In this document: positions 54,395 through 63,462 of the stretch, in pieces | Numbering within the stretch: the first letter of the stretch is position 1 | Layout of the letters: each line of letters begins with the position of its first letter | NCBI GenBank assembly: GCA_007745835.1 | Contig: CP036424.1 | Coordinates: 4,389,968 to 4,453,967 of the forward strand | Source: Planctomycetes bacterium MalM25 | GTDB taxonomy: Bacteria > Planctomycetota > Planctomycetia > Pirellulales > Lacipirellulaceae | DNA: 64,000 nucleotides | Direction: 5' to 3' | Made by a program: the position numbers and the translations under genes | The notes under the pieces: model-generated | Seen by the model: the letters and a program-made list of their open reading frames with translations, nothing else | What the model was told of the DNA's origin: nothing | Database searches by the model: none

Positions 54395-58744
<4,350 letters not shown>

Positions 58745-58769
58745 ACCAGCCGCTCCTCGCTAGGAAACG

Positions 58770-58818
58770 TTCGGAAGGGAGATGGGGGAGATGAAGGGGA
58801 GATCGGGGGGATGGTCAC
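58770..58818 (+). repeat. Left inverted repeat of the GxxExxY cassette
   Basis: Purine-rich on the + strand: TTCGGAA then GGGAGATGGGGGAGATG, AAGGGGAGAT and GGGGGGATG phrases. Pairs with 59211-59253 read on the - strand, which has TTCCGAA, GGGAGATG, GGGGA, TGAGGGGAGAT and AAGGGGATG in the same order with a few gaps. It includes the stop codon of the GxxExxY gene (58815-58817). Confidence 0.7.
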
Positions 58819-59207
58819 TCGGTGGATTTCAGTTCAACACGCCGAAAGTCCGCTTTCTCTTTGGCGAAGTTGATCAGCAATCCGATCTGCAGTCCGCTCG
58901 CTTTTAAGTACGACCTCAGCTGGGCGTAGTGCGCCTGGGAGAGGTCTTCTACCGCTTTCAACTCAAGGATGATCCGCTCTTCGACCACAAGATCGAGCCG
59001 GTGGTCTCCCACGGGCTCGCCCTCATAGGTCACGATGATTTTCTTCTCCGACTCGACGCTGAGCCCTTGGGAACCCAGTTCCAACAGCAGAGCGTTGTGG
59101 TAAATCGATTCGAGGAAACCGGGGCCCAAAGCACGGTGCACTTTGATGACCGCCCGGATGATCTGCTCGGTGATCGCGGCGTCGCCCGTCACGGCTCGCC
59201 CCGCCAA
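58815..59207 (-). CDS. GxxExxY protein (PD-(D/E)XK superfamily, PDDEXK_3-like)
   Basis: 130 residues. The name-giving motif is G30-F-L-E33-S-I-Y36; the nuclease core continues with D72 in RLDLVV and E82-L-K84 in LELKAVE, then Q91-x-x-Y94-x-x-Q-L-R-x-Y, a conserved helix of the family. All expected core residues are intact, so it is not a decayed copy. Start is TTG at 59207, with AGGGGA 8-13 nt upstream supplied by the flanking repeat; GTG at 59192 is an alternative. GC is lower than in rpoB/rpoC. These proteins are widespread, of unknown role. It lies in the sense direction of the rpoBC transcript. Confidence 0.88.
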   Translation of the reverse strand: MAGRAVTGDAAITEQIIRAVIKVHRALGPGFLESIYHNALLLELGSQGLSVESEKKIIVTYEGEPVGDHRLDLVVEERIILELKAVEDLSQAHYAQLRSYLKASGLQIGLLINFAKEKADFRRVELKSTE

Positions 59208-59210
59208 GAG

Positions 59211-59253
59211 GTCATCCCCTTATCTCCCCTCATCCCCACATCTCCCTTCGGAA
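59211..59253 (-). repeat. Right inverted repeat of the GxxExxY cassette
   Basis: Read on the - strand it begins TTCCGAAGGGAGATG and ends AAGGGGATGAC just before the GxxExxY start. It lies 13 nt after the rpoB stop. In the mRNA it can pair with the pyrimidine-rich complement at 58818-58770 to form a long imperfect stem around the gene. Confidence 0.7.
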
Positions 59254-59265
59254 GGTCACCAGTGC

Positions 59266-62988
<3,723 letters not shown>

Positions 62989-63462
62989 GGCGGGGAGCCT
63001 CCTAGCGAAACGACCTGGGGCGTCCGGCGGGCGCGACGGGTTCGATGGCGTTCGCCCCGGAAACAACGGGATCGAACCACCGAACAAGCGGGCACGCCGG
63101 GCGGCGTTACGCGGGTAGCGAGAGGGGGTGGCGACAACGACCGTACGCCGAACCGCGCGAGCGAAGCGAATCGCTCGGGCGTGCCGGCGCAGCGGGGAGG
63201 GGATCAGCCAGCGCAGCCCGAGCCGGGACCGCAGCGGGACCGAATACGCATGCTAGCGTGTTCGCCCGTCGGTCGTCAGCGCGAGTCGATGGCTCGTGGG
63301 AAGTCAGAACGAAACTCATCCCGGACAGCAGGAAGGAGCGGGAAACGATGGTCGTGCGGCGATCCGCTCACGGAACGCCGCCCAGCCTCTCGGCCCCGCC
63401 GACGCCGCCCCCGCACAGGCGGGGAGCGGGGCGTCGACACGAGGGGGGCCGACCGGCCGTGA
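62989..63462. other. 474-nt gap between rplL and rpoB; no gene seen
   Basis: This is the place where other bacteria have an attenuator or RNase site in the rplL-rpoB transcript. I see no coding frame on either strand. Short palindromes occur (for example CGAGCG/CGCTCG at ~63162-63182). A weak pair CTGACG-N18-TAGCAT on the - strand near 63245-63285 is not convincing as a promoter. Most of the gap is GC-rich without evident pattern. Confidence 0.6.

Follow-up and report, generated by a model that had tools for sequence, protein, structure and literature searches.

What is a small nuclease gene doing between rpoB and rpoC, and is it a solitary insertion or one of a kind found elsewhere? The question arises from a stretch of 64,000 nt of Planctomycetes bacterium MalM25, which as a whole is called the window here. 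Both RNA polymerase genes are on the minus strand, with rpoB upstream at 59266..63087 (by its listed ORF start; the true start is probably further in) and rpoC downstream at 54395..58744. Between them, and co-oriented with both, is a GxxExxY nuclease gene of 130 aa (58815..59207, minus strand) with H, GxGxxExxY, D, ExK and QxxxY motifs.

The cassette between rpoB and rpoC

The gene is bracketed by two arms. The rpoC-side arm (58767..58813) is purine-rich on the plus strand and contains four GGRGAT-type units at spacings of 9, 11 and 9 nt; the rpoB-side arm (59212..59256) is its inverted copy, purine-rich on the minus strand, with four units at spacings of 8, 10 and 8 nt. Together they form a true inverted repeat, with a score of 22.5 as against a mean of 8.0 and a maximum of 15.5 in 2000 dinucleotide-shuffled sequences (p≤0.0005). 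The first-pass annotation had reported the gene and its inverted repeat, and both are real; the four units per arm, 8-11 nt apart, are an addition to it. We use the term heptad arms for at least three degenerate heptad-type units, 8-11 nt apart and inverted around a gene, and the rpoBC cassette has such arms, built from a diverged GGRGATR unit instead of the CRCNRAG consensus described below. As first proposed, the rpoC Shine-Dalgarno sequence lies beyond the arms: it is the reverse complement of ctcctc at 58753-58758, within an rpoC leader (58745..58766, minus strand) that is outside the cassette and is similar in the congener G002.

The sequence TTCGGAAGG is found on the plus strand of the whole window at 58770..58778 and 59247..59255 only, and its reverse complement at two unrelated places. 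It had been taken for a target duplication, and a single homing-like insertion at rpoB-rpoC with a 9-bp duplication would account for its presence at both ends of the MalM25 cassette and for the gene-less spacer of another congener (G003). However, TTCGGAAGG is half of the inverted repeat, in which it is aligned as TTCCGAAGG/TTCGGAAGG, and is one base from its own inverse. Moreover, the GxxExxY gene also occupies this site in the congeners G001 and G002, where its arms have diverged and TTCGGAAGG is lacking, and the eight GxxExxY loci of MalM25 share no visible flanking sequence that could serve as a fixed homing target. The duplication is thus contradicted, and a homing insertion is hardly credible. 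What stands of the earlier description is a tiny nuclease-only cassette tolerated in an essential operon, with decayed-arm copies in three congeners and a gene-less spacer in the fourth; its architecture recurs across many phyla.

Thirty rpoB-rpoC junctions were taken, of which 29 were delimited (L027 was left out of spacer scoring), and an inverted repeat at shuffle p≤0.01 was present in 14 of the 29 spacers. The G003 spacer is 101 bp, with a remnant of a pyrimidine arm visible by eye and an inverted repeat that is not significant; GxxExxY genes are entirely absent from this genome. Junctions of other genera have a short spacer, gene-less inverted repeats built from other units (CGCAAAGG-like at L013, L015, L019 and L029; CACGGAG-like at L023 and L025) or a decayed four-helix-bundle gene (G013). 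The junction is thus occupied again and again. No target duplication was seen at rpoBC in the congeners, and in 200 kb each of two further genomes (G017 and G043) the spacers are too diverged to display one; among the compared genomes, spacer divergence likewise prevented any insertion end from being resolved to a single base.

The GxxExxY protein

GxxExxY proteins are a curated, uncharacterized family with multiple copies in many genomes. The 130-aa ORF matches TIGR04256 (E=1.4e-41; 141.5 bits, cut-off 35) and PF13366 (E=3e-41; 140.9 bits, cut-off 22), above the curated cut-offs of both, and PDDEXK_3 is the only Pfam family whose cut-off it exceeds. All of 29 aligned sequences, its own included, have H21, E30, D70, E80xK82 and Q94xxxY98, and the PD-(D/E)XK core is therefore intact. 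We take this H-D-ExK-QxxxY set to be that of Cas4 and RecB. An AlphaFold2 model of a relative (L003; pLDDT 95.6) has as its closest fold by VIA-align SSO0001, presumably a Cas4 (Z 9.8, rmsd 3.2, 98 residues); Foldseek also places SSO0001 at the top, with E 0.004 and no match at E≤0.001. Lower matches, which include Wolbachia CinA/CinB and EcoRV, have Z 8.1 or less. From the model and the motifs, GxxExxY appears to have the RecB-type nuclease fold and motif set by which Cas4 is recognized. Unlike Cas4, it has no invariant Cys in the 29 aligned sequences and is shorter (126 vs. 202 residues), and at rpoB-rpoC it has no CRISPR context but stands alone between heptad arms. The recombination-promoting Rpn (PDDEXK_2) proteins are also small PD-(D/E)XK nucleases in multiple copies, with a proposed role in DNA movement; GxxExxY belongs to a different Pfam family, and we know of no heptad arms around Rpn genes. 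Family profile searches recognized no strand-transfer domain in the ORF. The L003 protein, used as a single query, matched none of 50,697 phage records and 8 of 72,556 plasmid records, all of them predicted to be non-mobilizable.

Inverted arms at other GxxExxY loci

MalM25 (G000 in the comparisons below) has eight GxxExxY genes. All eight were seen by eye to lie between inverted arms, and all the arms are different. It had been expected that the other loci would share the GGGAGATG repeat of the rpoBC cassette, and none of the other seven does; the arm sequence differs from locus to locus. A strict GGGAGATG-based pattern had no match in this genome, which is weak evidence since it also missed the rpoBC arms themselves. 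Six of the eight loci score above the 95th percentile of swapped arms, with L007 and L002 below it. L002 (G000:C1:2740976-2741320) has an in-frame TAA before QxxxY and weak CGGGAT-type arms, and is probably a decaying copy.

Across 37 loci (36 distinct, as L045 is the same locus as L003) from MalM25 and its relatives, the mean arm score was 21.7, compared with 10.3 when the arms were swapped between loci, and 11 of the 37 exceeded the 99th percentile of swaps, even though swapped arms have the same consensus; a 38th locus, L054, lacks the motif and was left out. The common form of an arm is (TTA)ACC followed by three CRCNRAG heptads. In many bacterial phyla and in Methanosarcinales, 53 of 77 loci had arms at shuffle p≤0.005 and 24 did not, the 77 being the best 80 further loci among the matches listed, less L141, L143 and L187. 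CRCNRAG is present in both arms at least once in 93 of 124 distinct loci, at least twice in 76 and at least three times in 48 (126 loci less two duplicates, eight ids having been dropped beforehand). Successive heptads start 8, 9 or 10 nt apart in 127 of 140 cases; the self-identity of the arms peaks at lags of 8-10 (0.33-0.37, vs. about 0.28 in shuffled arms). The upstream arm is purine-rich in 99 of 107 loci. Dinucleotide-keeping shuffles were used for the rpoBC arms only; mononucleotide shuffles served for the 77-locus set, the four-helix-bundle loci, the exception genomes described below, the rpoB-rpoC spacers and the periodicity.

Gene-less and cargo-bearing elements

The first-pass annotation did not describe the gene-less and cargo-bearing relatives of the cassette. 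The CRCNRAG arm pattern matches 102 times in MalM25 and never when read backwards; in 59 Pirellulales genomes it yields 5160 arms, and its reversed control 311. GxxExxY is present in 48 of these genomes, which hold a median of 61 arms, with at least 10 in 44 of them and none in G037 and G056; nine of the 11 genomes that lack the gene have no arm, and the remaining two have 3 and 20. Uncorrected for relatedness, the association has a Mann-Whitney p=1e-6 and a Spearman coefficient of 0.71. Among 115 other Planctomycetota, at least 10 arms were found in 40 of the 55 genomes that encode GxxExxY and in 4 of the 60 that do not (p=6e-14, relatedness again uncorrected); the contrary genomes are those four, with 11-53 arms, and the 15 of 55 that have the gene and fewer than 10 arms. 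Most arms in GxxExxY genomes belong to gene-less elements or to elements with other cargo, for the most part tens to hundreds per genome.

In MalM25, 42 pairs were delimited around listed arms with a home-made gene caller. None lies in an ORF, and most are within about 30 nt of the neighboring genes; 35 are between co-directional genes, five are at convergent junctions and two at divergent ones. This does not support a preference for co-directional junctions, since the baseline in the window is also mostly co-directional (53 of 58 gene pairs). The loop is 132 nt or less in 30 elements and 289-742 nt in the other 12, three of which hold GxxExxY genes. An armed cassette at a cysE junction has as its only cargo a gene of the SUKH (SMI1/KNR4) immunity type (L104, 763-1164, minus strand); six other cargo ORFs had no Pfam match at E 0.01.

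Some arms are unusual in other ways. In L111 (788-858) and L113 (686-756) the pyrimidine-rich arm comes first, unlike the other 40 pairs of MalM25. Among the matches listed, G061 has about 30 or more identical CACAGATTACACCGATGGGCACTGAT arms, which suggests recent amplification of one family, and G002 has a long uninterrupted tandem array of CGCGAAGG units (G002:C1:399757-399859), possibly an expanded arm.

Nuclease relatedness and heptad class

GxxExxY could be merely the commonest cargo of cassettes whose generic ends arise or are moved through replication or repair by the host. The SUKH gene and the several ORFs without a Pfam family that are bracketed by MalM25 arms fit such a reading. Against it, arm number depends on the presence of GxxExxY in both genome sets above, and the type of heptad follows the nuclease. 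When heptads were assigned to the classes CAC/CGC and GAG/AAG, the nearest protein relative had the same class at 66 of 92 loci, vs. 28% in shuffled data (relatedness uncorrected). Protein similarity is likewise correlated with arm similarity (Mantel r 0.37 overall and 0.33 between Pirellulales and all others, p≤0.001, with no tree correction). Co-descent may contribute to the class match.

The genomes that have GxxExxY and few CRCNRAG arms provide a further test. Arms at p≤0.01 were found at 11 of 18 scored loci (20 in the set, less L349 and L354): 4 of 6 in G131, 3 of 4 in G161, 2 of 2 in G037, 1 of 1 in each of G122 and G087, and 0 of 4 in G124. Thus in G131 and G161 most scored loci (7 of 10) have arms, with variant units that include CRCNRAT; those of L340, L341, L346 and L347 read as CRCNRAT-type. 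Such variant arms also speak against GxxExxY being mere cargo. In 40 hand-picked genomes, a biased set in which the 17 GxxExxY-less ones already held 0-3 CRCNRAG arms, at least 7 CRCNRAT arrays were present in 19 of 23 GxxExxY genomes and 0-2 in the other four, and 0-2 in the 17 without the gene. This manner of choosing genomes makes the test of the exceptions weaker, as does G124, in which nine GxxExxY genes are accompanied by few CRCNRAG arms and none of the four scored loci is armed.

Four-helix-bundle elements

Of 30 Pirellulales loci of four-helix-bundle genes (TIGR02436, IVS-type; L289-L318), 23 had arms at p≤0.005, and CRCNRAG was found in the arms of none of the 30. The grammar of these arms is unlike that of GxxExxY arms: the units are contiguous and 7 nt long (CAGTAGG, GGTCGAG and TTTCAGC are examples), and the period is exactly 7 nt (identity 0.74 at lag 7 and 0.76 at lag 14 in 21 of 23 arms, L291 and L318 being left out). 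G028 has four four-helix-bundle genes, no GxxExxY gene and no CRCNRAG arm. Since four-helix-bundle genes are armed without the nuclease, such arms do not as a rule require it. These nuclease-free elements are the strongest point in favor of GxxExxY as cargo, G028 included. Weighed together with the dependence of the arms on the gene, this reading is in our judgment rather unlikely.

The 23S rRNA intervening sequences (IVS), with their S23 or four-helix-bundle ORF, resemble the cassette in being small single-ORF elements with inverted ends in a transcribed unit, and IVS-type genes have heptad arms. The Coxiella IVS, in which three tandem heptamers precede the S23 ORF, is cut out by RNase III (PMC4990558). 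The cassette differs in its position between protein genes and not in an rRNA gene, in its ORF (PDDEXK_3 and not a four-helix bundle) and in its heptad grammar. By analogy with Coxiella, the cassette could be an intervening sequence at the RNA level, its arms pairing in the operon mRNA and RNase III removing the cassette transcript, with the nuclease of secondary importance. In keeping with this, the IVS-type genes share its layout, and 8 of 8 GxxExxY genes of MalM25 are co-oriented with both neighbors, an arrangement that also fits read-through expression. However, an mRNA stem would predict that G.U mismatches are commoner than A.C on the sense strand, and they are not (134 vs. 153, or 136 vs. 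154 before removal of duplicates); by locus, 26 were for, 46 against and 33 tied. The GxxExxY cassettes therefore give no sign of a sense-strand RNA pairing constraint, which argues against action at the RNA level and leaves action at the DNA level or no constraint after insertion. In addition, 7 of the 42 elements, five of them gene-less, stand between convergent or divergent genes, and none of 19 loci matched an Rfam family at the gathering score. RNA excision is thus unlikely; it and GxxExxY as cargo are the main rivals to the DNA-level reading developed below.

Differences between congeners

Fourteen junctions filled in MalM25, plus rpoB-rpoC, were compared with three congeners, with occupancy judged by eye; they include argD/pyrD, gltB/gltD, hisE/hisG, queC/queE, sucC/sucD and moxR/DUF58. 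The fractions that follow are not genome-wide rates, as the junctions were picked as filled in MalM25. In G001 an inverted-arm element was present at 14 of 14 junctions, five of them with non-CRCNRAG units, and in G002 at 12 of the 13 junctions found, ABC/permease being empty (8 bp). In G003, 13 of the junctions were located (the left gene was not found for the remaining one), and none of them shows a CRCNRAG-armed element, though rplS/yraN holds a short perfect hairpin. G003 is the most divergent of the four congeners (0.867-0.872 in rpoC DNA), and for this reason gain and loss are indistinguishable at these junctions.

The occupant of a junction often differs in kind. At gltB/gltD, MalM25 and G002 both have GxxExxY, but between different arms; G001 has a four-helix-bundle gene flanked by CAATGAC arms, and the spacer of G003 is 93 clean bp. 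A GxxExxY cassette is present in all three of MalM25, G001 and G002 only at apgM/lysC, hom/apgM and rpoB/rpoC, and these copies look vertically inherited. Two of them are neighbors at L231 (G000:C1:626000-632600), in the order hom-L008-apgM-L004-lysC; their arms are different, and both cassettes are found in G001 and G002. At gcvPB/lplA, homologous cargo lies within one arm pair in MalM25 and within two concentric pairs in G001 and G002, as would be expected if GxxExxY were cargo like any other. In 200-kb syntenic stretches of G017 and G043 there are 8 and 10 elements, 13 of the 18 being comparable. Some of them are shared, some replaced and some absent, and in one case an element lies within another.

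These comparisons also bear on whether the arms are ordinary regulatory hairpins (attenuators, terminators or mRNA stabilizers) that chance to flank small genes. The arms are intergenic and hairpin-forming, and the purine-rich upstream arm resembles a Shine-Dalgarno sequence. However, they sit inside operons such as rpoBC, gltBD, hisEG and sucCD; the CRCNRAG-armed elements are absent at the compared junctions of the GxxExxY-less G003; the identity of the element changes between congeners; and the 19 loci searched against Rfam matched no family at the gathering score. Regulatory hairpins are accordingly a very unlikely explanation.

A possible mechanism and its relation to known systems

We lean towards reading the unit as a mobile DNA cassette. 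Its Cas4/RecB-type nuclease would act on the cognate arms and would also serve gene-less relatives in trans. The autonomous form would consist of one nuclease gene between two inverted arms, each of about 3-4 degenerate heptads. The arms, their heptad grammar, their match with the nuclease, the co-occurrence of arms and gene, the nesting and the differences between congeners are observed; we infer the recognition, the cutting, the chemistry of mobility and the route of integration. The GxxExxY nuclease would recognize the heptads of its own arms, either as duplex or as an extruded hairpin, and copying or movement of the cassette would follow from cutting or other processing of DNA at that place. 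The nuclease may also move, in trans, gene-less hairpins and cassettes that combine the same arm type with other cargo, as their co-occurrence with the gene suggests; this step is modelled on the proposed movement of REPINs by RAYTs. Surviving copies would be those in spacers, mostly between co-directional genes, with the cargo expressed by read-through.

In REPIN/RAYT systems a TnpA_REP gene is flanked by inverted palindromic repeats, and there are many gene-less intergenic copies. The cassette is similar in having one catalytic gene, inverted arms and gene-less copies, and in that the number of repeats tracks the gene. It differs in encoding a PD-(D/E)XK (Cas4/RecB-like) nuclease where RAYTs have an HUH Y1 transposase, and in its arrays of heptads spaced 8-10 nt and its other cargo genes. 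By analogy, then, it seems to act most like REPIN/RAYT without being a member, as no Y1 transposase was found.

The STRR sequences of cyanobacteria are intergenic heptamer repeats. Others of this kind are GGGAATC in Xanthomonas and GGGGATT in Nostoc (PMC4692102) and TAACTGA in Beggiatoaceae (PMC4679880). They are like the arms in being tandem heptamers in spacers, and those of Xanthomonas often stand as convergent inverted pairs (PMC4692102). In what was available of these two sources the repeats are not tied to a gene family, whereas in the genomes studied here four-helix-bundle genes are accompanied by contiguous 7-nt units and GxxExxY genes by spaced heptads. A full-text literature search of incomplete coverage found nothing linking either gene family to inverted heptad arms, and the heptad-armed cassette family is apparently widespread and undescribed.

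Implications

More tentatively, these elements may constitute an unrecognized class of mobile cassette in bacteria and archaea, in which the arms carry a short heptad code that is read by their own Cas4-like nuclease of 130 aa. Through its action the nuclease gene, gene-less hairpins by the hundred and cassettes with a single cargo gene would spread across operon junctions. The four-helix-bundle (IVS) elements would be a parallel branch with its own grammar, and the cassettes at a junction would be replaced over species-level time; we regard this broader picture as possible and short of probable.

As a putative defined DNA target, the arms make the function of GxxExxY directly testable. If the broader picture is true, there would be a single account for intergenic heptamer repeats, for IVS-type genes outside rRNA and for interrupted core operons such as rpoBC, gltBD, hisEG and sucCD. 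With clade-specific heptad targets, a nuclease of 130 aa would rank as an unusually small system for recognizing DNA. The exchange of single-gene cassettes at operon junctions would be a new way for operons to evolve.
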